DNA of 28,319 nt from a virus: the IMG/VR virus record IMGVR_UViG_3300046703_000336, positions 1-28,319 of that record. One strand, written 5' to 3'. The translations under genes were made by a program, and so were the position numbers. The notes below the pieces were generated by a model that worked only from the letters and a program-made list of their open reading frames with translations, had not been told where the DNA came from and made no database searches. Each line of letters begins with the position of its first letter. The stretch's first letter is position 1. Shown here piece by piece: positions 949-28,199 of this stretch.

Positions 949-1515
949 ATGAAAAAACCAGACAAACTCCGCGCAACGTCGCCGGGCAAACCCGACAGCG
1001 AGCTGACCAAGCTCAAGGCGCGCTGGCGCGATACCATGTCCGAGCCGGCGCGGGAATTCTGGCGGGTGCTCTTTATTTCGCCAACCTCACAGGCGGAAAT
1101 TCGCAAACAGATTTCAGCCAAACTGCATGTCCGGCTGGAGGACGATTCGCAACTGAACCGGTTTCGGGACTGGGAACTGGAGCAACGGCAGATGGACCTG
1201 GAAGCCGAGCGGGCGGCCGAGGAGGAGCGCCGGCTGATCGAGGAACATCCGGACTGGACAAAAGACCAGGTGCGAGAGGATTTGTTGCGGCGTTTCTACA
1301 ACCGCGCCCGGGCGACCGGCGATGCGAAGCTCGGCCTCAAGACCATCGCGGCGGACGCCAAACTGGAATCGCTCGGCTTGGATCGGGAGAAATTAGCGAT
1401 CCTCAAACGCAAGGCGGAACAAGCCGATACGGCCACCGGCATTTTGAAAAACAAGAAACTGACCGAAGACGAGAAACGGCAGCGGATGCTCGAACTGTTT
1501 GGAGTGGGCGCGTAA
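949..1515 (+). CDS. Putative terminase small subunit (Mu gp27-like position)
   Basis: 188 residues, starting directly after the upstream TGA and ending TAATG into the large terminase. It is highly charged and almost wholly helical: a basic N terminus, a segment resembling helix-turn-helix DNA-binding subunits (about residues 42 to 63, with SPTSQAEIRKQISAKL), then a long Glu/Arg-rich coiled coil (about 70 to 105) and a charged C-terminal region. In Mu-like phages the gene immediately before the gp28-type large terminase (gp27, DUF3486) has this kind of helical architecture and recognises phage DNA for packaging. The assignment rests mainly on position and helical composition. Confidence 0.6.
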   Translation: MKKPDKLRATSPGKPDSELTKLKARWRDTMSEPAREFWRVLFISPTSQAEIRKQISAKLHVRLEDDSQLNRFRDWELEQRQMDLEAERAAEEERRLIEEHPDWTKDQVREDLLRRFYNRARATGDAKLGLKTIAADAKLESLGLDREKLAILKRKAEQADTATGILKNKKLTEDEKRQRMLELFGVGA

Positions 1516-3038
1516 TGGCCAACCTAAAATCCACATCCAAAAAGGAAGCCTTCGAGCTTCTGCGCGCGAAGCGCGAGGCCGCGCTCAAGACTGCCGGCAC
1601 GCTTAACGACGTGCCGCTGGATGAACTGGCCGAGCGCGTTAAAAATCATCCCCTGGGCACAAACGTCAACGGTTGGGTGAATCCCTACGCGGCTGATGAT
1701 CCACGCAACCTGCTGCTCGAATATCAGTTTGCGAACCGTGAGGACAAAAGCCGCTTTAAAATTTCCCTCATGGGCCGGCAGACCGGAAAGGATTTCACCA
1801 GCGAAAGCGAAATCGCCGAGGATTGCCTCGTGCGGCCCAAGACCGACTGGATGATTGCCGCGCCATCCGAACGCCAGGCGCTCGACACGCTCGACCAGGG
1901 CAAGACCTGGGCGGAAGGGTTCGATCTCAAGATTGACGATTACCAGGAAACGCGCGAGGGCAACAGCGAGACGCTGTTGCGCAGCGCGCAGATCACCTTC
2001 AGCAACGGCAGCCGCATGCGCGCCGTGCCGGGCAAGCCGGACACCGTTCGCGGACGCAGCTCGAATGTTTATCTGACCGAGGCGGACTTTTTTGAGAACC
2101 CCCAGGCGACACTCCGCGCTATTTTTCCGAGCATCACCAATCCGCTGCGCGGCGGTGAAAAGCGGATGCGCATCGTCACCACACCCAACGGTGCCGGTTC
2201 CGCCTGCCAGAGAATCTGGACCTCCCCCGACGGCGCCCGGATGAAGTGGTCGCGCCATTTCACGACCATTTACCACGCGGTATTGATGGGCCTGCCGGTG
2301 GACGTGGAACAATTGCGCGAGGCGTTCGACGACCCGGACGGGTTCAACCAGGAATATCTCTGCCAGTTCCTCGACACGAACAACGTCCTGCTGCCTTACG
2401 ATCTCATCTTCCTGGCCGAGAGCGCGGATGCCACCGAGATGTGGAACCTCGCCGAGTCTGGAAAATCCAATCCCACTTTTTGCGGCATAGATTTTGGCCG
2501 GACCAACGACCCCACCGTCTGCTGGACCTTGCAACAGGTCGGCGATGTTTTGTGGACCCGTGAAGTTTTGGTTTTGAAAAGCGTCTCCTCACCCGACCAG
2601 GAGCAGATTTTAAAATCACGCATCGCCGCCGCGCAGCGCGTCTGCTTTGACTACACCGGGCCGGGCATCGGCCTGGGAGATTATTTGGTGGACCAGAAGC
2701 GCGGCGGGTTTGGCCAGTGGAAGCCGGAGGAGCACAAGTTCGGCAAGGTGGAACTGTTCACCTTCACACCCAAATCCAAACGGCTTTTATTTCCCACACT
2801 GCGGTCCCGGTTCAAAGATGCCCAGGGCGTTTGTAAAATCCGCGTGCCGGTTTCCACCGTCATCCGGGAAGACCTGCACGAGATGCAGCAAGTCATCACG
2901 AACGGGGAATATAATTATTGGTCGCGCCGCACCCGCGAAGGCCACAGCGACCGCTGCACCGCCCTCGCGCTCGCTGTGCGCGCCGCGGGAGATTTGCGCG
3001 CCACCTGGGGCGGCGGAAGGGGGGCCAGCCTGATATGA
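1515..3038 (+). CDS. Phage terminase large subunit, Mu gp28-like
   Basis: 507 residues; packages DNA into proheads with an ATPase and a nuclease. Visible motifs: Walker A-like MGRQTGKD (residues 86-93), Walker B region VYLTEADF (185-192), coupling motif IVTTPNG (220-226), and an RNase H-like nuclease with acidic residues at D326 (GIDFGRTNDPT), D379 (FDYTGPGIGLGD) and D479 (HSDRC). The GIDFGR/DPT and DxTGxGxxLxD patterns are typical of the Mu gp28 type. ATG 1515 overlaps the stop of the small subunit. The same frame is open far upstream, but that part only shadows the preceding genes. The gene ends ATGA-overlapping a 40-residue mini-gene. Confidence 0.92.
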   Translation: MANLKSTSKKEAFELLRAKREAALKTAGTLNDVPLDELAERVKNHPLGTNVNGWVNPYAADDPRNLLLEYQFANREDKSRFKISLMGRQTGKDFTSESEIAEDCLVRPKTDWMIAAPSERQALDTLDQGKTWAEGFDLKIDDYQETREGNSETLLRSAQITFSNGSRMRAVPGKPDTVRGRSSNVYLTEADFFENPQATLRAIFPSITNPLRGGEKRMRIVTTPNGAGSACQRIWTSPDGARMKWSRHFTTIYHAVLMGLPVDVEQLREAFDDPDGFNQEYLCQFLDTNNVLLPYDLIFLAESADATEMWNLAESGKSNPTFCGIDFGRTNDPTVCWTLQQVGDVLWTREVLVLKSVSSPDQEQILKSRIAAAQRVCFDYTGPGIGLGDYLVDQKRGGFGQWKPEEHKFGKVELFTFTPKSKRLLFPTLRSRFKDAQGVCKIRVPVSTVIREDLHEMQQVITNGEYNYWSRRTREGHSDRCTALALAVRAAGDLRATWGGGRGASLI

Positions 3039-3157
3039 CCAAATTTTCCTCAAAAGCGGCATTCTGGCATCTTTCCCGCCATTCGCCTGCCGGACGCCTG
3101 CTAGACCCCTGCTGTTCGCGGCAGCAGGCAGAATTTTTGGGGGTCACACCCGCATGA
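3035..3157 (+). CDS. 40-residue mini-gene between terminase and portal
   Basis: Short frame with ATGA overlaps at both ends: its ATG (3035) overlaps the terminase stop, and its TGA (3155-3157) overlaps the portal ATG at 3154. The peptide begins MTKFSSKAAFWHLSRHSP and has a Cys pair (DPCCS). This perfect double overlap suggests at least translational coupling, whether or not the peptide has a function. No homology is claimed. The alternative is a chance frame in a short spacer. Confidence 0.45.
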   Translation: MTKFSSKAAFWHLSRHSPAGRLLDPCCSRQQAEFLGVTPA

Positions 3158-5436
3158 ATCCGGATTTTGCCATCAAGGCGGAAAATTTCCTACGCACCCA
3201 GACCGCCATGCGCGACTGGCACAAGGTCGCCTTCCTGACAAAAGATGTCTCAGACGCCACGCTCGGCCAGGGAAATTTCACCCAGGGCATCCCCGCTTTT
3301 TGGTTCGCCCGCGGCATTGACGGCGGCTCAGGCGATCACCTCTCGCAACCCTACGCCGCCAGCGCCTGGGTCCGGCGCGCCATCAAATTTGTTTCCGGTC
3401 CCATCAGCTCCGTTGACCTGGTGTTTTCCCGGCCGTCATCGAGCACGGCCATGCGCCGACACAAAGGCAAGGGACCGCGCCTCTTCACCGCGCGCGGCAT
3501 TGTGCGCCGCGACGCCACCGCCGAGGTCGAACTGCCTCAGATCCGAGAGTTCCTCAAACAGCCCATGCTCGGCCTCACCTACGAAGATTTTGTCGAGGCC
3601 AGCATCGGCTGGATGAAGTTGCAGGAATGTTTCTGGATCATCGCGGATGAAGGTGCGCGCGTGCCGTTTCCGGAAGTGAAGACGAATCCGTTCGCGCCCA
3701 TCATCGTCGCCCGTCCGGACCGGATGCGCGCCACCGTCGAGGCCGGCAAGATCATCGCCTGGAATTTCACCGACGCGAGCGGCAAGGTCTGGGAACTCGA
3801 ACCCGAACAAGTCGTGCGCCTCTTCGGCTGGAATCCTTACGACCCGCATCGCGGCCTGGGCGATTATCCCAGCGCGGCCCTGGCCGCCGAGAGCCATCAC
3901 CTCGGCTCCAAGTTCAAACGCAACCTCACGGCGGACAATGATACCGCGCCCATTATCTCCGCAAAAAACGGAACGCCCACCGACACACAGATCGAGCAGA
4001 TCAAACTTTCCATTGCCGAGCGGCGCTCGGCCCGCATGCGCGGCAACTCCAAGGCGCTCTTCCTGCCCGGCGAGGTGGACGTGCATGATCCCAAGATTCT
4101 ATCCGTGGACGCCGCCTTCATCGCCGGCATGATGGAAGACCGTCACGAAATCTTCATGGCCTTTGGCGTTCCGCCGAGTCTCGCCGACGTGCGCGCGAGT
4201 TATTCCATCGGGCAGGCCAGCGACTGGTTCGCGCTCGTGTTCAATACCTGCATTCCCGAAGGCAACAAGTTTTGCGCCGCGCTCGAATCCCTCATCAAGC
4301 TCCTCACCGGCGAGAGCGTCGAGGTATCGCTCGACTGGGACGATCACTACGTCATGCAGCAGGTCCGCAGCGAACGGATGAAGGATGCGGACAGCCTCTT
4401 CATCAAAGGAATGCCGATGAAGCAGGTGAGTGAGTATCTGAATCTCGGCCTGCCGGAATACGACGAATGGGACCAGGGCTATATGCCCATCAACCTCACG
4501 CCCGTCAGCGCCGCGCAGAATGAAGCCGCGCAGACCGTCGAGCCGGTCACCACCGATGATTTCGCTGAAGGCGAGCCAACAAAGCCTGGTGAAGCGAAAC
4601 CGCCGGTCACGGCCATGCTGCGCGTTTTGAAAATTGGAAAGCAGAAAGCAGAAAGCAGAAATAAGAAAATATGGGAAGCGCACATGCGGCTGCGCGCGAA
4701 GTCGGTCAAGTTGTTCCAGTCCAAATGCTCGAAGGTCTTTAACGACTACCGCGTGACCGCGCTGCGCCGGTTCGAAGCCGCGCAAAAGTCCGTGGTGGCG
4801 GCGGACCTCACCAGCAAAGGTCTCGTGGACGTGATCTTCAACCCCAAGTTGTTCGGCCTCGACCTGTTCAAGGCGCTCGATCCCGTCATGCGCGCCACGC
4901 TGCAGACGGCCGGCGATGAACTCCACGACGAGATCGGCCAGGACGATCCCTGGAAAATGGCGCCGCGCCAGGCGATCAACTTCATCAGTCTGCGCGAAGG
5001 AAAAATAAAAGACGTGGGCGAGACCGCCCAGGCGCAGCTTAACAACGCGCTGGCCACCGGCATTGACGCCGGCGAGACCACCGAGCAACTCGCCGGCCGT
5101 GTGCGCGGCGTGTTCAACGATCTGCAAAAGTTCGAGGCCCGCCGGATCGCGATGACCGAGACCAGCGCGGCCTACGGTTTCGCCCGGCACGAGGCCATGA
5201 CCGATGCCGGCATCGAATACAAAGGCTGGCTCACCAGCCACGGTCCCACCGTGCGCGAAGCCCACGCCCAGGCCGAGGCCGATTACGCCGACAACCCGAT
5301 CCCGCTGGACGAGCCGTTCATCGTGGACGGCGAGGAGTTGATGTATCCCGGCGATGAGAGCGGCTCGCCCGAGAACGTGATCAACTGCCATTGCATCCAG
5401 CTCGCCATGAAAAAACCGGAAGGAGAAACCGCATGA
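3154..5436 (+). CDS. Portal protein fused to Mu F-like head-morphogenesis domain
   Basis: 760 residues. Residues about 60 to 455 are an HK97-type portal: SAWVRRAIKFVSGPISS near the start, the central PYDPHRGLGDYPSAALAAE segment, MMEDRHEIFMAFGVPPSL, and the late DADSLFIKGMPMKQVSEYLNL region. It forms the dodecameric DNA gate of the head. Residues about 600 to 755 match the Mu F/SPP1 gp7 family (PF04233): ARRIAMTETSAAYGFARHEA, a GWLTSH..TVREAHAQ stretch and the terminal NCHC (residues 744-747). The join, about residues 455 to 510, is low-complexity and includes KQKAESRNKK, encoded by a GCAGAAA heptad repeat (4636-4662). GGGAAG (4673-4678) and an in-frame ATG at 4684 lie just after it and could be the old start of a separate Mu F gene. 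Portal and Mu F genes are usually separate neighbours. Confidence 0.9.
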   Translation: MNPDFAIKAENFLRTQTAMRDWHKVAFLTKDVSDATLGQGNFTQGIPAFWFARGIDGGSGDHLSQPYAASAWVRRAIKFVSGPISSVDLVFSRPSSSTAMRRHKGKGPRLFTARGIVRRDATAEVELPQIREFLKQPMLGLTYEDFVEASIGWMKLQECFWIIADEGARVPFPEVKTNPFAPIIVARPDRMRATVEAGKIIAWNFTDASGKVWELEPEQVVRLFGWNPYDPHRGLGDYPSAALAAESHHLGSKFKRNLTADNDTAPIISAKNGTPTDTQIEQIKLSIAERRSARMRGNSKALFLPGEVDVHDPKILSVDAAFIAGMMEDRHEIFMAFGVPPSLADVRASYSIGQASDWFALVFNTCIPEGNKFCAALESLIKLLTGESVEVSLDWDDHYVMQQVRSERMKDADSLFIKGMPMKQVSEYLNLGLPEYDEWDQGYMPINLTPVSAAQNEAAQTVEPVTTDDFAEGEPTKPGEAKPPVTAMLRVLKIGKQKAESRNKKIWEAHMRLRAKSVKLFQSKCSKVFNDYRVTALRRFEAAQKSVVAADLTSKGLVDVIFNPKLFGLDLFKALDPVMRATLQTAGDELHDEIGQDDPWKMAPRQAINFISLREGKIKDVGETAQAQLNNALATGIDAGETTEQLAGRVRGVFNDLQKFEARRIAMTETSAAYGFARHEAMTDAGIEYKGWLTSHGPTVREAHAQAEADYADNPIPLDEPFIVDGEELMYPGDESGSPENVINCHCIQLAMKKPEGETA
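4636..4662. repeat. Heptad repeat, GCAGAAA family (3 units), inside the portal-Mu F gene
   Basis: Three exact GCAGAAA units at 4641-4661 with a partial unit before them. The 26 bases at 4637-4662 are identical to 14637-14662, which is an intergenic copy before the tape measure gene. Here the repeat is translated in frame in the linker between the two domains. Confidence 0.85.
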
Positions 5437-5627: not shown

Positions 5628-5926
5628 TCCGCCACCCGTCACCCGTCACCCGCCACCCGTCACCCTGGAGCGATGCCGGGTCGCTGAAAGCCGTCCGCCG
5701 CGAGATGGTCAAGGCGCGCCTGGCGGACACCGTGGCCGTCTCGATGAGTTTGAGAAATTTCTGGCGGCCGCTGGTCCTCTGGCGCGCCGTCAAGTTCATT
5801 TTCCGAAACCAGCGCCGGCAGAAGATCCTCGCGCGCCTGTCGCGCGCCCGCATGGGCTTCGCCTGGCGCGATTCGCGTCCGCTCAAACTCCAACGCCAGC
5901 TCGGCCTCAAACCAAAATTATCATGA
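5624..5926 (+). CDS. Basic hypothetical protein with repeat-encoded N terminus
   Basis: 100 residues with ATGA overlaps at both ends (5624-5627 and 5923-5926). The first 14 or so residues (MIRHPSPVTRHPSP) are wholly encoded by CACCCGT heptad repeats, so the start region looks rebuilt by repeat insertion. The rest is strongly basic and helical (WRAVKFIFRNQRRQKILARL). It could bind nucleic acid or the head interior, but no motif supports a function. The composition of the remaining part matches its neighbours, so the gene body appears genuine. Confidence 0.55.
   Translation: MIRHPSPVTRHPSPWSDAGSLKAVRREMVKARLADTVAVSMSLRNFWRPLVLWRAVKFIFRNQRRQKILARLSRARMGFAWRDSRPLKLQRQLGLKPKLS
5633..5667. repeat. 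Heptad repeat, CACCCGT family (4 to 5 units)
   Basis: Units CACCCGT, CACCCGT, CACCCGC, CACCCGT and a diverged CACCCTG follow one another directly after the ATG at 5624. The whole array is translated as the N terminus of the 100-residue protein. Confidence 0.85.
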
Positions 5927-6609
5927 ACACGATTCGCAGAGTCATCCACCCGGCCCTCAAAATTATTGACGAGAAGAATTTCATCGCCGAGTTCACCGCC
6001 AGCGACGAAACCATTGACCTCACCAACGAGGTCATCCGCGCCGGCGGCTGGCGCTTCAAGTTGGCCAAGAAGAATTTCCCGATGGTCAACTCGCACGACT
6101 ATTCCGACATCCGCAATGTCCTCGGCAAGGTCATCGAGTTCGGCGTCGTCGCCGGCAAGCTCATGAACACGGTGCAGTATGCCTGCGACGTGGCGGAGAA
6201 TCAGCTCGCCCAGTTCGCCTGGAAGATGACCTTGGCCAAATATCTTCCGGCTGTCAGCGTGGGCCTGGTGCCGCTCCTGGTGGCCACGCGCTGGGACGCG
6301 GACAAAAAAAATTACGAATCACAGCGCGCCGACCTGAAGCTCGCGCGCGAGCAGATGCCCGATGTGATCTACATCGAGCAGGAACAAATCGAACTTTCGC
6401 AATGTGTCATCGGCGCGAACCCCAACGCCGTGGCCAAAGCCTACAAGGCCGGCGTGCTCTCCGATGCCGACCTTGATTTCCTTTCCACCGAAGTTGCCAG
6501 AAACAAAATCGCCGACTCGACCGATGGTCCCGCTGCCGTCGAGAAGGCCCGCCAGCGGGTGCGGATGGCCACCTTGATGGAGTTCACCACGAAAATTAAA
6601 AAATTGTAA
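5923..6609 (+). CDS. HK97-family prohead protease (peptidase family S78/U35)
   Basis: 228 residues. It should cleave the scaffolding part of the capsid protein and itself during head maturation. The N-terminal half has the expected pattern: FIAEFTASDETIDLTNEVI, then a catalytic His candidate at H58 (MVNSHDYSDI) and a catalytic Ser candidate at S112 (LPAVSVGLVPL), with hydrophobic strands between. The C-terminal third is helical and charged. ATG 5923 overlaps the upstream stop, and the gene ends one base before the capsid gene. Its place directly before the major capsid protein is the standard one, which supports the call. Confidence 0.85.
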   Translation: MNTIRRVIHPALKIIDEKNFIAEFTASDETIDLTNEVIRAGGWRFKLAKKNFPMVNSHDYSDIRNVLGKVIEFGVVAGKLMNTVQYACDVAENQLAQFAWKMTLAKYLPAVSVGLVPLLVATRWDADKKNYESQRADLKLAREQMPDVIYIEQEQIELSQCVIGANPNAVAKAYKAGVLSDADLDFLSTEVARNKIADSTDGPAAVEKARQRVRMATLMEFTTKIKKL

Positions 6610-6610
6610 T

Positions 6611-8116
6611 ATGCACAAACATAAATATCTCAAACCGTTCGCGCTGCCCGTGCTCGCACTCGTCGCGCTGCCACTCCTCCTCTGCATCGCGCTCTTCGCC
6701 TTCGTCATGCTGCCCGCCGCGGCCCAGGCCGGCGTGAGCTGCGCCATCGCACCGCTCGTCATCCCCAAGGGCAAGGCGCTCACGGATGAGGAATTCCAGG
6801 CCACACTCTTCGGCGGCGTCAACTCGCTCATCGAAGAGCAGGGCACCTTCAAATCCGCGCAACAGAAAATCCTCGATGACCTCGGCCGGTCCGACAAGGA
6901 AGTCAAGGCCTCGCTCGAAGACCTGACCAAGGTCAAGAACACCACCAACGCCACGTTCGAGGACATCATGAAGCGCATGGAAAAGGTGCAGCGCCAGGTG
7001 ATGCTGAACAGCCGCTCCAGTTTCCGCTCGCCCATCGAGCGCGCGTTGGCTAGCGAGGAATTCCGGTTCAACCTCAACGCCATCGCCCGCTATTTGCTCG
7101 CGCAAAAAGACGGCAGCCTGGATCGCCTCGATCCCGCGTTTAAAAAGGCCGTGGACGATTACCGGCCCAAAGCCAAGGCACTCACCGGCGTTGACACCGG
7201 TCTCGGCCAGGCCACCGTGCCCACCGATACCTTCAACGAGATTTACGATCTCCTGTTGGAGTACGGCGATTACGCCACGCTCGGCGTGCAGCGCGTCGGC
7301 GCCCGCGTGAACGTCCTGCCCATTGCCACCAGCCGTCCGCAGTTTTACTGGATCGGCTCGCAAAGCACATTAGCGGAAGGTTCCACCATCACCAGCGGCG
7401 CCTTCACCGGCGGCCAGGTGATCAACATCATCAACACCTGCGCCGTGCTCATGTACGTCGCCCGCGAACTGCTCGCGGATTCCACCGTGGATCTCGCGCC
7501 TTACGTGATCCGGCAGATGGTCGAGTCCGCCAACTGGGGTCTGGACACCGCCGCCTTCATCGGCACCGGCAACATGGACACCACCAACGCCGGCTACGTC
7601 GGAATTTTCAACGCCGCGCTGGCCAACACGAACCTGGCTTGCGCCGCCGGCGCTGGCCGCACGACAGCCGGCATCCTGAAGATTGACGACTTTGTCAACA
7701 CGGTCCTCACCGTGTCGGCCCAGGTGCTCAATCGCAAACCCATGTGGTGGATGCACCCGCAGATGCTCGCCCGCATCGCGCTTATCCGCGATAACAACGG
7801 CCGCCCGATCTTCCAGACCTGGCAGGAAGTGCCCAACCCCGGCAGCATCGGCAGCATTCTCGGCTACCGCATCCATCCCACGGCCATCGCGCCCACTACG
7901 GACGGAGCCAGCCAGCCCGTCGCCGTCTTCGGCGATCCGCAAGGCCAGAGCGTCTGCATCCGCGAAGATTTGGAACTGGCCACCAGCGACGACATCGGCT
8001 TCCCGCAAAACCTGCGCGCCTTCCGCGCGCTGGTCCGCGCCGGTGTAAAAATCAAAACCCTCCCCGCGAGCACCACGCTCAAACCCTTCGCCGTCCTTTC
8101 GACCGCCGCGGCATAA
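6611..8116 (+). CDS. HK97-fold major capsid protein with an N-terminal signal peptide
   Basis: 501 residues. Residues about 55 to 135 are a helical, charged delta-type scaffold (SAQQKILDDLG, FEDIMKRMEKVQRQ). From about 140 the sequence follows HK97 capsids: ATVPTDTFNEIYDLLLEYG, VQRVGARVNVLPIA, EGSTITSGAFT, AAFIGTGNMD, MHPQMLARIA, a GYRIHPT segment, FGDPQG and a terminal VRAGVKIKTL strand. It should form the head shell after cleavage by the upstream protease. Oddly, residues 1 to 40 form a textbook signal peptide: MHKHKYLK, a hydrophobic core of over 20 residues (ALPVLALVALPLLLCIALFA) and an AQA|G cleavage site. An in-frame ATG at 6707 would omit the core, but nothing upstream of it looks non-coding. 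Confidence 0.88.
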   Translation: MHKHKYLKPFALPVLALVALPLLLCIALFAFVMLPAAAQAGVSCAIAPLVIPKGKALTDEEFQATLFGGVNSLIEEQGTFKSAQQKILDDLGRSDKEVKASLEDLTKVKNTTNATFEDIMKRMEKVQRQVMLNSRSSFRSPIERALASEEFRFNLNAIARYLLAQKDGSLDRLDPAFKKAVDDYRPKAKALTGVDTGLGQATVPTDTFNEIYDLLLEYGDYATLGVQRVGARVNVLPIATSRPQFYWIGSQSTLAEGSTITSGAFTGGQVINIINTCAVLMYVARELLADSTVDLAPYVIRQMVESANWGLDTAAFIGTGNMDTTNAGYVGIFNAALANTNLACAAGAGRTTAGILKIDDFVNTVLTVSAQVLNRKPMWWMHPQMLARIALIRDNNGRPIFQTWQEVPNPGSIGSILGYRIHPTAIAPTTDGASQPVAVFGDPQGQSVCIREDLELATSDDIGFPQNLRAFRALVRAGVKIKTLPASTTLKPFAVLSTAAA

Positions 8117-8207: not shown

Positions 8208-9239
8208 ATGAAAACTGAACACGAAATCAAAGCTCTTCCACTGGAAGAGAAACAGAAGCTCGTCATCGAGCTGCGCGCCATCAAACCCGGCGACAAGGCT
8301 TACGCCAACGCCAAAGCCATCATCGAACTCATCACCGGCCATTCCAAGTGGAAGGAGCCGAAGACCTTCGAGGTATTAAACATAACCAGCCACGACGTCA
8401 GTGTGGATGGCAACATCATTGCCCCCAATGCCACCGGCAAGATATACTTCTGGCAATATCTGGCGCTCGCACGCTTTTTGGAAGCTGCCCCTGAGTTGGA
8501 GGAAGAATTGGCCGTCAGAAAAGATGCATTCTGGGCACTCGAAGCAAGAAGCGCCGCATTGGCACCCAAGCCCGAAGCGCAAAATATCGCCGATACTGTC
8601 AAGACGGCCATTGCCGACGGCTTTGCCAGTCTTAAAGAGAACGCCGGCAAGGTTGCCGCGCTTATCGCATTGCTCGGCTGCCTGTTGTTTGCCTCCGGCG
8701 CGCAGGCGCAGGTGCAAACCACGGCCGTCGGCTCCGCCGGCAACTACCACACCTACTACGTCGCCGGCCTCAACGGTGGCACCAACAACATCGCCGCCGC
8801 CACCACGGCCGGGTTTACCGTGCCGGTCACCACCACGACGGGCATCATCACCAATGCCAGTTGGAACTTTTCCAACGGCATCTGGACCAACACGCTCACC
8901 TTCACTACTAACACGAGCGTCAACGTTCCCGGCCTCCTCGCAATCCCCAACGTTGACCAGTTTGCGCTCACGTTCGGAGGCGCTTCCGTAACCGCGTCCA
9001 ATGTCCTCGAAACCGCGAGCGTTGACTATTCGCCCGACTCCATCAACTGGCAGACCAACAAATGGTCGCTGATCATTACCACCATCGGCGTCGGCCAGGT
9101 CACCACCAACGTAGATGTGAACGGCTGTAACGGCGGGTACCTCCGGCTAAACAGCATCATCAACAGTTCCATGTACTACGCGCTGACCAATATCTTTTTC
9201 GAGGTCAGCGCCAAGGCCAGCCGCACCGGCCCGTTCTGA
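8208..9239 (+). CDS. Unknown two-part protein with an internal signal-like segment
   Basis: 343 residues. Residues 1 to about 140 are charged and look cytoplasmic (SKWKEPKTFEVLNITSHDVS, then helices with LEEELAVRKDAFWALEAR). Residues 144 to 167 look like a complete signal peptide: KENAGK, a hydrophobic core VAALIALLGCLLF, then ASGAQA|QVQ. The remaining 176 residues are Thr/Asn/Ser-rich beta structure (ITNASWNFSNGIWTNTLTF), like an exported or surface domain. The place after the capsid gene is where decoration or head accessory genes lie. It could be a fusion of a head protein with a secreted protein, or a membrane protein with an external C-terminal domain. The start at 8208 has only a weak ribosome site. 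Confidence 0.75.
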   Translation: MKTEHEIKALPLEEKQKLVIELRAIKPGDKAYANAKAIIELITGHSKWKEPKTFEVLNITSHDVSVDGNIIAPNATGKIYFWQYLALARFLEAAPELEEELAVRKDAFWALEARSAALAPKPEAQNIADTVKTAIADGFASLKENAGKVAALIALLGCLLFASGAQAQVQTTAVGSAGNYHTYYVAGLNGGTNNIAAATTAGFTVPVTTTTGIITNASWNFSNGIWTNTLTFTTNTSVNVPGLLAIPNVDQFALTFGGASVTASNVLETASVDYSPDSINWQTNKWSLIITTIGVGQVTTNVDVNGCNGGYLRLNSIINSSMYYALTNIFFEVSAKASRTGPF

Positions 9240-12111: not shown

Positions 12112-13194
12112 ATGAACTCTTTTTTACTGGGTTGTTTGGTTGCCTTGTTGTTCAACTTTCCGGCCCGCGCCGTCTACTTCGGCACCAACATTCCCGGCAA
12201 CATCCCGCAGGCCAGCGTGTTCGCCACCAACATTCCCGGCAACATCCCGCTGTTCAGCGGCTACCAGTACTCAAACGTTGTTGCCGGCTTTTCCATCTTG
12301 CGAACGGCAACGAATTATTGGCTGAACACGGGGGCGCTGGTATCGGTGGAGTTGACCAATGGCGGGGCCTGGCGCATTGGTGGCAGCTGGATCGTGTCGA
12401 ACGTCGCGGTGAGCGGCGGCGTGTCGCTGGTTATTACCTGCAGCCAGTATCTCGGTTTCACCACCGCGAATCACGACCTGCACGGCAATAAACTTTTAGG
12501 CCAGCATAACCTGACGAACAGAAACTTCGTAACCGTGTCTTGCGCCGGTGGACAATTCGACGCGACCCTTCCCGGCACTTACAATCCAGAATGTGAGACG
12601 TTGACCGGCGATGTGTTCACCTGTTCTTGCTCGGGCGGCTTTACCAACTTTGATCTAAATTTTGATGGAGACAATGAGCCTTATTACAACGGTTGGAGAG
12701 TGATCGAACGGGCCGCGTTTTTGTCGTTCTATGGTGGCATTGGGTTCCATCCGACCACGGGAAGTTATTTCTCGGCACCCTCAGCCGAAATCACGCCCGG
12801 AGCCAATTACGCCGAATTCGATTTAAGTTCGGGCGGGTACGTTCTCGTCTGCGACATTGGGCAGTTCGATTGCCACAACAAAAATTTTAACATGCTGGAC
12901 CCCGGCGATGGTGGAGGGATCATTTTCACGCGGCCGACTTATTTCACAAACTGGGCTGTTAACGGCATGCAACTGATCAGTTGCCCGGCATTGGCCGGGA
13001 TGGCTTATACGAACGGCGTGGCGATAGCCAACCCACAGTTGAACTTCGTGGCATTGAGAACGAATGCCTGGACTGCCTCCGAACTTTCGCCGGGGAACGG
13101 GTTTGGCTTGTGGCATTCCAACCGGACGGACTTGTACTTCAATCGGAACTCAGCGGGCACGATCCAAACGTATAAAATCGGCTCAATTCCGTAA
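12112..13194 (+). CDS. Exported Asn/Thr/Gly-rich protein, unknown role in tail module
   Basis: 360 residues. The N terminus is a signal peptide (MNSFLLGCLVALLFNFPARA, cleavage after ARA). Directly after it come two 14-residue repeats, FGTNIPGNIPQASV and FATNIPGNIPLFSG. The rest is beta-rich with many Gly, Asn and aromatic residues and several Cys pairs (FTCSCSGGF, VLVCDIGQFDCHN), which would suit disulfides outside the cytoplasm. It shares the TN-PGN repeat type with the next gene. Lying between tail tube and tail chaperone genes it may be a tail fibre, a virion decoration or a host-surface moron. No enzyme motif was seen. Confidence 0.75.
   Translation: MNSFLLGCLVALLFNFPARAVYFGTNIPGNIPQASVFATNIPGNIPLFSGYQYSNVVAGFSILRTATNYWLNTGALVSVELTNGGAWRIGGSWIVSNVAVSGGVSLVITCSQYLGFTTANHDLHGNKLLGQHNLTNRNFVTVSCAGGQFDATLPGTYNPECETLTGDVFTCSCSGGFTNFDLNFDGDNEPYYNGWRVIERAAFLSFYGGIGFHPTTGSYFSAPSAEITPGANYAEFDLSSGGYVLVCDIGQFDCHNKNFNMLDPGDGGGIIFTRPTYFTNWAVNGMQLISCPALAGMAYTNGVAIANPQLNFVALRTNAWTASELSPGNGFGLWHSNRTDLYFNRNSAGTIQTYKIGSIP
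12183..12250. repeat. In-gene direct repeat with a 42-bp period
   Basis: Twenty-six bases at 12183-12208 recur exactly at 12225-12250, a 42-bp offset that encodes the 14-residue TNIPGNIP unit twice. Confidence 0.85.
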
Positions 13195-13207: not shown

Positions 13208-14014
13208 ATGAACAACACAAAAAAGAATCTGCTTTCTGCTTTCCGCCGGCCCGTGAAGTCTTTGCTCCTTGCTTCACTGGGCTGCTTTCTGCTTTGGCTT
13301 TTCCCGGCCAGCGCCCAATTTTCAACCAATCCCATCGGCACCATCCCAGCCACCAACAGTTTCGGGACCAATGCTTATCTTTGGGGGACGAACAGCCAGG
13401 CATTTACCACCAACAAGCCAGGCAATATCTCGCCGACCAACGCCTTCGGGACCAACGCGATCCACTTTGGCACCAACAGCACCGCGTTTGCCACGAACGC
13501 GCCGGGGACCGCATCGCTGCCGCTGCAGACGAATATTTATCTGGTCGGGACCAATCTGGTCACCAACATCTTTTCCGGCCGGTTCTCCACCAACGCGCCC
13601 GGCAATCGCACAAACTCCGGCACGTTCACCGGAACGGCGGGACGGATCGCAATCATTACGGGTGTCAGCAATTTGGTGACGACGATCATGACGAATTATT
13701 CATTAATCGTGAGCAATGCCGGCTGCTCCTCCATGAACGGGTTCTATGACTGGACGGGAAACAATTACTACGTGATGCCCGGCGGCACGAACATAATTGA
13801 CTGGCGCTCCTACCCCCCCAGCACGCTTAAAAGCAATTCCACCGTCGAATATCTCTCCGGCGGAACTCTTACAGGTACCTATGGCACGAACAGTTACGGA
13901 AGCACTTATCCCGTTGGGATTGGTCCTCTGCCGACAGTTTTGGATTCTGCAACGCGGTTTGTCCTGTCAACCAATCTGGCCAGTACCATCAGTTACACCA
14001 CCAATTATCCCTAA
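13208..14014 (+). CDS. Exported Thr/Asn-rich repeat protein, fibre-like
   Basis: 268 residues. The signal peptide (residues 1 to about 37, ending FPASA|QFS) is partly encoded by TTTCTGC-type heptads. After it a 28-residue period repeats: FGTNAYLWGTNSQAF at 52 and FGTNAIHFGTNSTAF at 80, each followed by a TNxPG unit, related to the 14-residue repeats of the preceding gene. Residues 168 to 180 (VSNAGCSSMNGFY) match VSNAGSAGFNGTY in the large exported protein at 22237, so the two probably share a surface-binding module. Fibre or adhesin role is inferred from repeats, export and context. Confidence 0.75.
   Translation: MNNTKKNLLSAFRRPVKSLLLASLGCFLLWLFPASAQFSTNPIGTIPATNSFGTNAYLWGTNSQAFTTNKPGNISPTNAFGTNAIHFGTNSTAFATNAPGTASLPLQTNIYLVGTNLVTNIFSGRFSTNAPGNRTNSGTFTGTAGRIAIITGVSNLVTTIMTNYSLIVSNAGCSSMNGFYDWTGNNYYVMPGGTNIIDWRSYPPSTLKSNSTVEYLSGGTLTGTYGTNSYGSTYPVGIGPLPTVLDSATRFVLSTNLASTISYTTNYP
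13229..13295. repeat. Two pairs of CTGCTTT heptads encoding a signal peptide
   Basis: CTGCTTT twice at 13229-13242 and twice at 13282-13295, the complement strand of the GCAGAAA family. In this frame they encode LLSAF and GCFLLW, that is, much of the n/h-region of the signal peptide of the gene starting at 13208. Confidence 0.75.
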
Positions 14015-22236: not shown

Positions 22237-24675
22237 ATGAAAAAAATCACAACCGCTTGCCTGCTGTTTTTTCTTGCCGCCACCGGCCTTGCCGGCAACC
22301 TCTTCACTGGCACCCTGACCAACTTTTGGTCTATGGGCGGAAGCTGGGTCAGTTTTCAGGCCGCCGGCTACAACACGGCTACCAACATCCAGGTTGTGGT
22401 GTTGATCGACACCAATACTATCTTCGCATCAGGTGCGCATTCGGGACAAGGTCTCCGCTGGAGTTTGATGGGAGGCATGGAGTTCGACGGCACGAATCTC
22501 ATCATGCAGACGACGTTTGAGAGCGCCCCGAACTCTGACCTTGATGTCGGCTATATTACCATCACCAACTTCGCGCCGGGGACGAACCTTTTTTCATTGT
22601 CAGTCACCACTGCTGTGACTTCGTCAAGTTACTTTGTCGTCTCAAACGCCGGCAGCGCCGGGTTCAATGGCACGTATCCCGGTCTGGCTGGACTCACGGC
22701 GGAGAACAGCGGGACGAATTGGTGGATCAATGGCACGAATTATCTCGTTTACCAATGGTATCAACCGAGCACCAACACGGGTTCGCTTCATGCCGACACT
22801 ACAAACGGTGTCGGCTGGCCCACCTCTTACATTTTTTTTGGGCCAACCAATCCGGCAAACGGCCAGGCATTTACGGCATCCATTTATTACGGCGACGGGG
22901 TGCCAGGCGATAGTCCTGCGCCTAGTGTCTGGTATTTTCAAACCGACACCACCAACAGTGATGCCGGCTTCGTCCTGACCGGCGGCGGCATTGCCTCATC
23001 GGTGGCTATCCCGCCCGCAGCCACGCCGGCGTCCCTCTCATTCGTCACGTCCACCGCCGTCGCACCGCCCGCGCTCATCATCCTGAGCAACGGCGTCGTC
23101 GGCTGGGTCAACTCACGGGCCTACGTCTCGTCGCTCCAAACCAACGTCGTGCTGTCCTCCTCGCGCATCACCATTTACACGACCAACACCTTCGTCTTTT
23201 CCGGCTCGAATTACGTTGGCCGCTTCGCCCAGCTTTACGATTGGACCGTGACCACGCCGTCCCATGTCCCCGTTGGCTTCGACGGCCCCTGCCCGGCCAC
23301 CAACCAATACGAGGGAGTCTGGTGTAGCTATACCGGCACGAACGGCTGGTTCCTGGCCACGAACGGCTTTGTGACGTCCACCAACGTCTCGGTCTCCATC
23401 GTCGGTGCGGCTGGAGGTTACGGCAGCGTAACGCTGTTCGGCCTCGATCACCCGGAACTGTACGGCCGTACAAATTCTTTTGACGGGCAGAACTGGCTCG
23501 TCAACGGCTCACCCATCGCCAGCCAGGCGGACATCGCCGCCACCGTCCACGTCCTGTCCCCGCCCGTGCAACTCGCCGGCAACTGGCTCTTTGATTCTTC
23601 GGCCCCCACAACCACAAATGAGACCGTCTCGTTCACCGCGTACAACACGCCGATCTTCCAACTGCTGGCCATCTCCTCAGGCGTTCACCTCGACAACTTT
23701 TACCTCACGACTACGAATACCTTCTTCGCAGGAATTGATGTTGCGCAGACCAACCTGCTAAGCGGCTGGATCTTGGAGCAATGCACCAATCTCGCCCCGC
23801 CGGTTGTTTGGAACACGTTCACGAATTTCACCACGACCACGAACGCCGGCGAGTTGACCCTAATCGTGCCTCACGACGCGAATATCCCCGCCGCATTCTT
23901 CCGCATCCGCGGCGCAGCGGACATCAGCGCGACGTTCAACGCGCCGTTGGTGGTAAACGGTTCGCTCACGGCCAGTAACTATGTCGGGGGTGCGGCTGGT
24001 CTGACCAACGCGAATCCATTGACACTCTTTTCGGCTGGGGCGGCAACCGTGCTCGGGTCAAACGTGATGGTCAACCTCAGCAACGCCTCGCCCGCCACAC
24101 TGGCCCTGTTTTGCATCACCAACGCGAATGGATCTTTGACGTACGCGATCTCCAACTCCGCGCCTGTCGGCGGCGGCGGCACATTTGGCGGTGGAGCCGT
24201 TTCGAACCTGACGATCGGTCAATGGGCGTTCGTCACCAACACAACCGACAACAGCCTCGTGCAAACCAACCTGACCTATGGCGTCGTCGGAACCATCAGC
24301 CTGACGAACGGCATCGTCATCATGGGAGGCCGCGCTTTTGTTCCCGGTGTTCCAACGCTTGGCCCGACCAACGGAACACTGATCGCTTGGGCAAATTTAG
24401 ACGCTAACGCCCAAAACAATTCGATGTCGTTGACTTGGTCAAATACGTCGGGGACGCAGGTGACTTTCAGTAATTATTTTGTCATCAATTTTTCGCAGTC
24501 ATTCCCAGCGGGATTTCTGCCGCATTTCTCTGTAAGTTGGGGGGCGGCGTCAACCATTATAAGCCCGTTTCCTCCGCTCTCAGTGTCAAATACGCTGAGT
24601 ACTATTTACCTCAAATCCGTTGGCGGTGCGATGACAGCCAGCAAGGTTTTTCAGTTAAATCTTATCGGTTTTTGA
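22237..24675 (+). CDS. Large exported fibre- or adhesin-like protein
   Basis: 812 residues. Signal peptide MKKITTACLLFFLAATGLAG, then a long Thr/Asn/Ser-rich beta protein. Residues 135 to 147 (VSNAGSAGFNGTY) match the exported protein at 13208. About residues 510 to 558 (WILEQCTNLAPPVVW to AAFFRIRG) look like the C-terminal-type domain with a FFRLR ending that is common on secreted proteins of Verrucomicrobiota. Then ASNYVGGAAGLTNANPL resembles the GDGSGLTNL motif of tail fibres. The last 120 residues form a compact beta domain. Three bases separate it from the hub gene, so it is cotranscribed with it. A receptor-binding fibre built from host surface modules is the likeliest reading. Confidence 0.75.
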   Translation: MKKITTACLLFFLAATGLAGNLFTGTLTNFWSMGGSWVSFQAAGYNTATNIQVVVLIDTNTIFASGAHSGQGLRWSLMGGMEFDGTNLIMQTTFESAPNSDLDVGYITITNFAPGTNLFSLSVTTAVTSSSYFVVSNAGSAGFNGTYPGLAGLTAENSGTNWWINGTNYLVYQWYQPSTNTGSLHADTTNGVGWPTSYIFFGPTNPANGQAFTASIYYGDGVPGDSPAPSVWYFQTDTTNSDAGFVLTGGGIASSVAIPPAATPASLSFVTSTAVAPPALIILSNGVVGWVNSRAYVSSLQTNVVLSSSRITIYTTNTFVFSGSNYVGRFAQLYDWTVTTPSHVPVGFDGPCPATNQYEGVWCSYTGTNGWFLATNGFVTSTNVSVSIVGAAGGYGSVTLFGLDHPELYGRTNSFDGQNWLVNGSPIASQADIAATVHVLSPPVQLAGNWLFDSSAPTTTNETVSFTAYNTPIFQLLAISSGVHLDNFYLTTTNTFFAGIDVAQTNLLSGWILEQCTNLAPPVVWNTFTNFTTTTNAGELTLIVPHDANIPAAFFRIRGAADISATFNAPLVVNGSLTASNYVGGAAGLTNANPLTLFSAGAATVLGSNVMVNLSNASPATLALFCITNANGSLTYAISNSAPVGGGGTFGGGAVSNLTIGQWAFVTNTTDNSLVQTNLTYGVVGTISLTNGIVIMGGRAFVPGVPTLGPTNGTLIAWANLDANAQNNSMSLTWSNTSGTQVTFSNYFVINFSQSFPAGFLPHFSVSWGAASTIISPFPPLSVSNTLSTIYLKSVGGAMTASKVFQLNLIGF

Positions 24676-24994: not shown

Positions 24995-25017
24995 CAAGCT
25001 AAAGCTTGAACTCCAAC
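24995..25017. repeat. Left inverted repeat flanking the toxin-antitoxin pair
   Basis: These 23 bases are the exact reverse complement of 25745-25767. They contain the stop codon and last codons of the toxin gene. GAACTCCAAC recurs once more 13 bases on (25021-25030). Confidence 0.85.
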
Positions 25018-25373
25018 TTTGAACTCCAACCTGGCTGCCGGCGGTGAAGGGGCAGCCGCAACACTTCCACCATTTTCCGGGCTATCAGGTGCCGGCGTTC
25101 CTCGGTGACCTGGCCCTTCTGGTCGTCGAAGCGCGCTTTGGGCAGCAAATGAATTTTGTCGCAGCGGACCATGGTTTTCCAATCCAGCCCGTCGGCTTCG
25201 TCCAATACTTCTTCGGTGGATTTCGCGCTTCGGTTCACTTTGGCCGAGGTGCAAAGCAGGGCATTGATTTCTTCAATATCCGGATTCTGGCAGGTTTCAT
25301 CATTGGAAATGATGACGGCGGGATGCCGCTTTTCCTTGCTGAACGGAAACATGAAGATGTCCCATTGTCTCAC
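24999..25373 (-). CDS. PemK/MazF-type toxin (mRNA endoribonuclease)
   Basis: 124 residues from GTG 25373, with AAAGGGA about five bases upstream. The family pattern is visible: RQWDIFMFPFSKEKRHPAVI at the start, IISNDETCQNPDIEEINALL, a CTSAKVN segment, and KTMVRCDKIHLLPKA with conserved strands. Such toxins cut RNA and are held inactive by the antitoxin. The antitoxin gene lies 12 bases upstream on the same strand. The last ten residues (WSSKLEFKL) and the stop come from the flanking inverted repeat, so the native C terminus was probably replaced. The key residues of the fold appear intact. Confidence 0.85.
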   Translation of the reverse strand: MRQWDIFMFPFSKEKRHPAVIISNDETCQNPDIEEINALLCTSAKVNRSAKSTEEVLDEADGLDWKTMVRCDKIHLLPKARFDDQKGQVTEERRHLIARKMVEVLRLPLHRRQPGWSSKLEFKL

Positions 25374-25385
25374 GGCGTTCCCTTT

Positions 25386-25685
25386 TTATTCAAGGTCTTT
25401 GGGGGCGCGAATCACCGAGGCTTTGGCCAGACGATTGTCCTCTTGAATTTCAGCCTGGCTGCAGGCGTTGGCGAAATAGTTCGGCGGACGGATAGGGACA
25501 GGCTCGATTTCAGGAACTTCCTGCAAAATGAACCGCTGCCGTCCCTTGACGATATAAACCGTTTCACCCCGGCCGGCTTTTTCCATCAAGCGCCCCAAAT
25601 ACGTTTTGGCATTGCTCAACGTGAACATTTGCGATTGCAAATTGATCTTCAGTTTTCGGAAACGGGGACGGCTGGCAATTTTCAT
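25386..25685 (-). CDS. Phd/YefM-type antitoxin
   Basis: 99 residues if it starts at 25685. The core is FTLSNAKTYLGRLMEKAGRG followed by ETVYIVKGRQRFILQEVPEI, a Phd/YefM-like DNA-binding domain; the C-terminal part (YFANACSQAEIQEDNRLAKA) should wrap the toxin. It neutralises the toxin and, with it, represses the operon. The start at 25685 is favoured because a strong promoter with a palindromic operator ends right before it; 25628 (MFTLSN) is an alternative that would leave a 57-base leader. A Phd-type antitoxin with a MazF-type toxin is a mixed pairing, known but less common. Confidence 0.78.
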   Translation of the reverse strand: MKIASRPRFRKLKINLQSQMFTLSNAKTYLGRLMEKAGRGETVYIVKGRQRFILQEVPEIEPVPIRPPNYFANACSQAEIQEDNRLAKASVIRAPKDLE

Positions 25686-25691
25686 AGGCTG

Positions 25692-25720
25692 AATATAGCC
25701 TGTATTCAGGCTGGTGTCGA
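25692..25720 (-). promoter_or_regulatory. Promoter of the toxin-antitoxin operon
   Basis: On the minus strand TCGACA (25720-25715), a 17-base spacer and TATATT (25697-25692) match sigma-70-type boxes in five of six positions each. Transcription would start near 25685, at the ATG itself, which would make a leaderless message. Confidence 0.6.
25697..25712. promoter_or_regulatory. Operator-like palindrome in the toxin-antitoxin promoter
   Basis: AGCCTG, four bases, CAGGCT, lying inside the promoter spacer. A third half-site, AGGCT (25686-25690), forms a further inverted pair with AGCCT (25697-25701). This fits autorepression by the antitoxin-toxin complex. Confidence 0.6.
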
Positions 25721-25744
25721 GCATTATCCAAATTGACCCGGCGC

Positions 25745-26910: not shown

Positions 26911-27146
26911 AAAAGTCGCGCGGAGCATAACGGCTTCACAACCTCTGGGGAATCTCGAAACGAAATTCAACAACGGGAAAAACAACGCAACCAAGACCAC
27001 CAAACCCCTCAACTCTTACCCTCGGCTGCTTTGTTCATTCGTTCAACTAAAATATTTGCTAAATTTCAGAATTAATTGTTGAAAATTCATCTGCCTTGAG
27101 CAAGCTTAAAATAGGAACAGCGATTGCTTACAATTGTACCGCGCTT
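26911..27146. other. Divergent intergenic region
   Basis: 236 bases between the deiminase and the beta-helix gene, AT-rich around 27040-27090. It must hold the promoters of both genes, but no convincing pair of boxes was found by eye. Confidence 0.5.
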
Positions 27147-28199
27147 ATGAAAATGAGCTTGCATCAAATCAGAGGTTTGGCGGTCGTAAAGCATGCCTTA
27201 TGCGTGGGGTTGTTGATCTTTCCGGTGAGCCACGGGATTGCTCCCCAAATACCTGGCGTGGCACCGGAGGCTGCAATGTTGCCCGCCGGCATAACCAGCG
27301 CCGAAATCCAACAAGCGCTGGACCTCCTGCCTGAAAGTGGCGGGGAAGTGGTGCTGCCACCCGGAACTTTTGAAGTCCGCCAGCCCATCGTGTTGCAGCG
27401 CGATCATCAGACCTTGCGCGGTTCCGGGGATGCGACAGTCCTGCGCCTGGCGGATGGCGCCAATTGCCCGGTGATCATCCTGGGTGAACCAGTCAACAAT
27501 CCACATTCAACTGTCAAAGACCTGCGCGTCAGTGACCTTTTTATTGACGGAAACCGTTACCACCAGCAACGCGAACTCTGGCAGCTTCAGGGCGAAAGCT
27601 CGGAAGTCCGCAACAACGGAATCACCATTCAAAATGTGAGCGATTCGATAGTGGAACATGTGACCTGTGCCCGCTGCCGTTCCGGCGGCCTGGTCACCAC
27701 GCGGGACGTGCGGCGGCTGACGGTGCGGGATTACACTGCGTTTGACAACGAGTTCGACGGCCTGGCCTGTTATCAAACGGCGGATTGCCTGTTCACGGGA
27801 CTTTATCTCAACGACAATCCGGGTGCGGGCATTTCACTCGATCTGGCCTTCAATCACAACGTCATCAGCAACGCTGTCCTGACCGCCAATGACTTGGGCA
27901 TCTTCATGCGCGAGAGCCGTGACAACCGGTTTTATAACATTTCCATCCGCGACAGCCGCCATTACGGTGTTTTCATGGCGCACGCCGAGAAACAGACACC
28001 TCACGGCTGGCAGCCGGTGTCCCGGACCGAGTGCGCGGATAACTCCTTCACCAATTTAGTCGCCATCAATTGCGGTAGTGCGGCTTTCCGCGTCAATAAC
28101 AACACCTGCACCAACAATGTCATCGTCCAGCCCCAATTTCAGGATAATGTCCAAGGCGGACTTTCGCTGGCCCAGCCGGATTTGGTGAGCGTGCAGTAG
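27147..28199 (+). CDS. Exported right-handed beta-helix protein
   Basis: 350 residues from ATG 27147. A signal peptide-like N terminus (MKMSLHQIRGLAVVKHALCV, then GLLIFPVSHG) is followed by IQQALDLLPESGGEVVLPPG, the usual opening of pectate-lyase-like parallel beta helices, and RQPIVLQRDHQTLRGSG. Coils of about 22 residues then repeat (NNGITIQNVSDSIVEHVTC, GLVTTRDVRRLTVRD, NRFYNISIRDSRHYGVFM, with Asn-ladder positions). Such proteins bind or cleave polysaccharides; no catalytic residues can be named by eye. An in-frame ATG at 27096 would put 17 extra polar residues before the signal sequence, so 27147 is preferred. No link to the deiminase is evident. Confidence 0.78.
   Translation: MKMSLHQIRGLAVVKHALCVGLLIFPVSHGIAPQIPGVAPEAAMLPAGITSAEIQQALDLLPESGGEVVLPPGTFEVRQPIVLQRDHQTLRGSGDATVLRLADGANCPVIILGEPVNNPHSTVKDLRVSDLFIDGNRYHQQRELWQLQGESSEVRNNGITIQNVSDSIVEHVTCARCRSGGLVTTRDVRRLTVRDYTAFDNEFDGLACYQTADCLFTGLYLNDNPGAGISLDLAFNHNVISNAVLTANDLGIFMRESRDNRFYNISIRDSRHYGVFMAHAEKQTPHGWQPVSRTECADNSFTNLVAINCGSAAFRVNNNTCTNNVIVQPQFQDNVQGGLSLAQPDLVSVQ

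Follow-up and report, generated by a model that had tools for sequence, protein, structure and literature searches.

The window analysed here is the whole of a 28,319-nucleotide stretch of viral DNA (IMG/VR record IMGVR_UViG_3300046703_000336), and the gene under study encodes its major capsid protein (MCP; Table 1). Pfam Phage_capsid (PF05065) covers residues 199-482 of this protein with an E-value of 6.8e-30 and 104.8 bits, against a curated cut-off of 24.2, and phrog_10, the PHROG major head protein, matches residues 57-486, which bears out the normal HK97 capsid domain described in an earlier note on this DNA. Since terminase, portal, a prohead protease homolog and tail genes surround the MCP in one cluster, the locus represents a tailed-phage head module; encapsulin identity was considered for the MCP and ruled out, as terminase, portal and tail proteins share its gene cluster. 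Past residue 59 the AF2 model predicts helix, as expected of a delta-type scaffold, so that the scaffold proposed in the same note is supported at the low confidence of that model. Built with 26 homologs, the model reached a pLDDT of 51 and was for this reason left out of fold comparison. The parts of a fused-scaffold HK97-type MCP are therefore found together, namely a predicted helical N-terminal scaffold (low confidence), the capsid domain and an adjacent protease homolog.

Table 1. Features of the head module discussed in the text (positions in the window).
Feature	Position	Strand	Remarks
Terminase	about 1503-3038		
Portal, Mu-F-like C-terminus	3154-5436		
Prohead maturation protease homolog	5923-6609	+	stop codon 1 nt before MCP start
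MCP ORF	6611-8116	+	501 aa; HK97-type, PF05065
MCP basic n-region (MHKHKYLK)	6611-6634	+	residues 1-8, 3 Lys
MCP hydrophobic helix FALPVLALVALPLLLCIALFAFVML	6638-6712	+	residues 10-34; predicted insertion energy -4.69 kcal/mol
Turn with AQA|G motif	6713-6733	+	residues 35-41, motif at 38-41; position and motif not conserved
Second, weaker hydrophobic segment and basic end, VSCAIAPLVIPKGK region	6734-6775	+	residues 42-55; pN/pS 0.32
Delta-type scaffold, predicted helical	6779-7180	+	residues about 57-190; AF2, low confidence; module-free homologs begin here
HK97-fold capsid domain	7205-8056	+	residues 199-482; PF05065 E 6.8e-30
MCP+1 protein	8208-9239	+	N-domain of cytoplasmic type; signal sequence inside the protein; C-domain a beta-sandwich
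Signal sequence in MCP+1 protein, KVAALIALLGCLLFASGAQA|Q	8649-8708	+	export-type hydrophobic segment

The protease homolog gives weak PHROG matches (phrog_4523/3270), and is 45% identical over 191 aa (E 1e-55) to the protease half of a fusion protein in locus L078. In that locus the prohead protease and the MCP are naturally fused in one 649-aa frame, and the membrane module between them is absent. Elsewhere in the window, the gene at 351-692 encodes a small, holin-like protein with one strong transmembrane helix; relatives have genes of this kind about 6 kb 5' of their MCP. The right flank carries a PemK/MazF-like toxin gene (25002-25724, minus strand) and, upstream of it, a small ORF that possibly encodes the antitoxin, followed by a member of the agmatine/peptidyl-arginine deiminase family (PF04371; 25810-27012, minus strand) and a beta-helix protein (27096-28199, plus strand); the latter two are likely host genes flanking a prophage.

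The MCP opens with an unusual leader. Insertion energies, given here in kcal/mol, come from a Hessa-type algorithm that we re-implemented, and both the energy and the signal rules are home-made. By this measure residues 10-34 (-4.7) are among the most hydrophobic segments measured, and the best MCP segment beyond residue 110 scores +2.4. Residues 9-38 are all uncharged, and AF2 predicts a helix at residues 5-39 with a pLDDT of about 50-70. The basic n-region, hydrophobic core and AQA|G motif that the earlier note read in the letters are all present. That note ended the leader at 6730; the conserved unit reaches about residue 55 (nt 6775). A motif resembling residues 42-55, AxAPLxL, adjoins the scaffold in L125, L128 and L131, where two short segments flank a short polar turn and the second of them resembles the window's AIAPLVIPKGKALTDEEFQ (L125: ALAPLVLTEEQVKEFQ).

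Comparison with 36 homologous MCPs from viral contigs and genomes demonstrates that the leader is a binary, swappable module on an otherwise complete scaffold. Sixteen homologs carry it and 20 lack its codons. The maximum 19-residue hydropathy is accordingly bimodal (2.2-3.0 in 16 proteins, below 0.8 in 20), and insertion energies run from -1.8 to -4.7 in module-bearing homologs and from +1.5 to +7.7 in module-free ones. Wherever an alignment resolves the border, the module is fused before an otherwise complete scaffold start, as in L026 (MLRRILFDSAGADGNGFETKVLKGVETL) versus L017 (...GGVRILCDKDGADGNGFETKVLKGVETL) and again in L104 versus L108. Two subtypes are referred to below, type A being that of the window and type B that of L017, L027, L031, L036 and L077. 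Between L077 and L036 the type-B module is 51% conserved, while the capsid cores are only 40% identical. Homology between type-A and type-B modules is not detectable (z 1.6), and we therefore do not claim a common origin for them. A tblastn search of the loci gave no convincing module copies outside MCPs, and a search of the module-free relatives for a compensating membrane gene found none. Since half of the close relatives do without it, the module must be dispensable or replaceable.

The leader is translated under selection. Across the window and six close type-A relatives, whose proteins are 76-80% identical and whose start region is common to all, pN/pS is 0.71 for residues 1-41, 0.32 for residues 42-55, 0.36 for the scaffold and 0.28 for the capsid core; the type-B module gives 0.47. 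In the alignment the other relatives have no counterpart of the internal ATG at 6707 (M33). Because nonsynonymous change is rarer than synonymous change and M33 is not conserved, the upstream start at ATG 6611 is accepted. An annotation artefact, in which translation truly begins no earlier than ATG 6707 and the codons before it are read by chance, could appeal to the fact that no Shine-Dalgarno-like motif is visible just 5' of either ATG 6611 or ATG 6707. However, the codon-level constraint, the basic start and ATG kept in 16 homologs and the lack of conservation of M33 largely refute this reading, which we consider barely credible. The earlier note would have taken the leader as refuted if homologs all began no earlier than the position of ATG 6707. 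The outcome is mixed: 20/36 do begin later, and the cause is a module missing from their genes rather than an error in the start site.

The distribution of the module follows the MCP lineage. A PF05065 survey gave 45 genomes with a match among 313 genomes of the host order, and 25 among 388 genomes across the whole phylum. N-termini were then read in two sets of further MCPs, 43 in one and 26 in the other. The hosts are Verrucomicrobiia, subdivision 3. The phylum survey served as the breadth control in place of an HK97-based one, which returned only close HK97 relatives. On a quick, midpoint-rooted tree of 103 capsid cores of HK97-fold MCPs, L226 and L228 were treated as weak cases and given no assignment. 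Within the sample read, the module is restricted to two related MCP lineages, occurring in 31/64 of their assigned members versus 0/37 others (Fisher p 2e-8, a value that ignores the relatedness of the sequences). It has been gained or lost at least 15 times on this tree, with at least 10 changes forced by supported branches; counted within the window's own lineage, the changes number 10, at least five of them forced. Assignment of the module to the host order was also considered and is confounded by MCP lineage; as other MCP lineages of the same order are also without the module, we assign it to the two lineages and not to the host. In a translated search with the MCP, only five of 50,697 phage records matched, all at 28% identity or less, and the protein thus marks an almost undescribed phage group.

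The general plan of the module in relatives is a basic end, a transmembrane helix, a turn and a weaker second hydrophobic segment, with basic residues again in many. Almost all of the 31 module-bearing MCPs have lysine or arginine ahead of their first helix (median 3), and the net charge of the first 12 residues is +2 to +6 among the module-bearing homologs of the window's own family. Many members (e.g., L107, L110, L121 and L122) have a further hydrophobic stretch, and basic residues come after it. The complete arrangement of two hydrophobic segments, a turn and basic residues at both ends is clear by eye in these four and in L103 and L106, and the second segment scores weakly overall; hairpin-like leaders also occur in the second MCP lineage, e.g., in L110 (MNKFLKQHKHTLALAAVCLLAVAITALGAPLGLGVLLVAGYQLSQIAMAKR). 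Read from sequence, this two-segment pattern fits an N-in/C-in membrane hairpin that would keep scaffold and shell domain in the cytoplasm. For type A we infer such a topology only, because the second segment is short and marginal, with a predicted energy of about +3 to +4.5 (+3.3 in the window).

The cleavage motif is less regular. The window has AQA|G, and L016 and L005 carry AKA|G or TKA|G; only some relatives have such a motif, and its position is not fixed. Neither position nor residues of AQA|G are conserved in seven type-A relatives, and types B and C show no consistent site. Of the features of a Sec substrate cut by SPase I, the leader has the basic n-region and the hydrophobic core, and lacks a short h-region with a conserved small-x-small site. 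The name "complete signal peptide" used in the earlier note is right as to the basic start and hydrophobic core; it is not confirmed for a core of 25 residues and a site without fixed position, and is not the best name for this leader. A lipoprotein reading of the conserved Cys44 (GVSC) was rejected by eye, the residues before the cysteine being a misfit to the lipobox across relatives.

The protein encoded just downstream, MCP+1, unlike the MCP, looks by its sequence like a genuine Sec substrate, and is possibly the more certain one of the head module. An export-type hydrophobic segment is present in 22/22 homologs, mostly ending in AxA|Q. An N-domain of about 60-150 residues usually precedes this signal, which is then internal; L039 and L050 lack that domain and have the signal at the N-terminus. 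By a crude rule, an N-terminal signal occurs in 9/24 MCP+1 genes of the sister MCP lineage versus 2/32 elsewhere. The AF2 model (pLDDT 80) has a C-terminal beta-sandwich; its matches, CBM16 (Z 9.7) and XepA, an exported protein of PBSX (Z 8.9), indicate a shared fold and no more. MCP+1 is present and membrane-targeted by sequence with or without the MCP module. Signal-peptide-like starts (e.g., MKKITTACLLFFLAATGLA|G) are also seen in three further genes of the tail region (12112-13194, 13208-14014 and 22237-24675), of which the first two have GTN/PGN-rich repeats in common; under the same crude rule, such starts are few in the late regions of lambda and HK97.

We propose that residues 1-55 of the MCP may be a removable membrane-anchoring module on the N-terminus of the delta scaffold, a reading to which we give an even chance. 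The basic start and first helix would target the nascent MCP to the inner membrane, and the weaker second segment would return the chain, leaving scaffold and HK97 domain in the cytoplasm. With the chain so anchored, MCP subunits or capsomers would collect at the membrane and proheads would therefore nucleate there. After closure, the upstream-encoded maturation protease would cut off the scaffold together with the anchor, freeing the head for DNA packaging. Bimodal hydrophobicity, codon selection, fusion before an intact scaffold, the distribution of 31/64 versus 0/37 and the neighbouring protease homolog all speak for an anchor. Of the readings considered, the best supported is the one suggested in the earlier note, that the leader tethers prohead assembly to the membrane until the upstream protease removes it, given a module that is conserved, repeatedly gained and lost, and in many relatives hairpin-like with basic ends; membrane insertion, hairpin topology, membrane-bound assembly and proteolytic removal are the steps that we infer. 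The absence of the module from half of the close relatives weighs against an anchor, as does the short second segment of the window's own subtype. The main difficulty is one of geometry. The HK97 delta domain points inward, and an anchor at its tip would thus end inside the closed shell, unless the geometry differs here.

The same inward-facing geometry makes a soluble hydrophobic core the leading rival, in which the modules would pack without any membrane as an oily core of the prohead, aid delta association and leave with the scaffold. This would account for the position of the module at the scaffold tip and for its gain and loss. Yet the combination of a basic end and a -4.7 kcal/mol helix makes a strong substrate for SRP/Sec or YidC, and hairpins that are basic on both sides obey a positive-inside rule for which a soluble core has no need, so that we consider this reading unlikely. 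There is a slim chance that the leader instead serves to place or time MCP translation, through membrane-coupled translation or a delay of assembly, and has no structural role; binary gain and loss would suit such a function, but the conserved second segment (residues 42-55, pN/pS 0.32) is not predicted by it.

Export fares similarly. A single-pass signal anchor or a cleaved Sec signal could direct part of the MCP pool out of the cytoplasm, for export or periplasmic display in some second role, and a single-pass orientation of this kind is compatible with the short second segment of the window's subtype. The cleavage motifs in the window, L016 and L005 and the AxA|Q signal of MCP+1 lean the same way, as does the anammox encapsulin, a shell protein of HK97 fold that bears a Sec-like segment at its N-terminus and for which export into the anammoxosome has been proposed (PMC8346489). 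Against this stand the lack of a conserved site in other relatives, the 25-residue core, the second hydrophobic segment that in many relatives would return the chain, and the need of packaging for cytoplasmic heads. We regard this reading as quite improbable and export of the capsid protein as unlikely, and the exported particle offered as an alternative in the earlier note is not supported. A bolder form of the membrane anchor, to which we attach little probability, would make every MCP subunit an integral membrane protein during assembly, with the HK97 lattice growing at the inner membrane, perhaps curving as a coat round a membrane bud and enclosing lipid in the early prohead, until proteolysis makes a soluble head.

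Known systems offer partial parallels to the proposed anchor. HK97 gp5/gp4 share the PF05065 fold, an N-terminal helical scaffold fused to the MCP and a protease gene directly upstream; however, gp5 starts MSELALIQKAIEESQ, and its N-terminal 110 residues, at about +8 kcal/mol, are without a membrane segment. The major coat protein of filamentous phages, pVIII, enters the membrane via an N-terminal signal, like the proposed MCP leader, but its fold is unrelated, assembly is by extrusion and the signal is cleaved. The logic of a membrane anchor derives from T4, whose proheads form initially at the inner membrane and come free once N-terminal propeptides have been cleaved in maturation (PMC9958956), although there the membrane contact is the portal (gp20 with gp40 and YidC) and not each MCP copy. 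The anammox encapsulin, for which our literature search gave no second example of an HK97-fold shell bearing a Sec-like segment, differs in being a cellular nanocompartment with a cytochrome fusion and not a phage head. For tailed phages, the search found no MCP with an N-terminal membrane segment or signal peptide, an absence that is not proof.

HK97-fold capsids are generally treated as soluble and assembled in the cytoplasm. A recurrent, lineage-specific membrane module on an MCP would make membrane-bound HK97-type assembly testable. It would also show how scaffold domains gain new functions, and would provide a natural membrane-targeting tag for capsid engineering.
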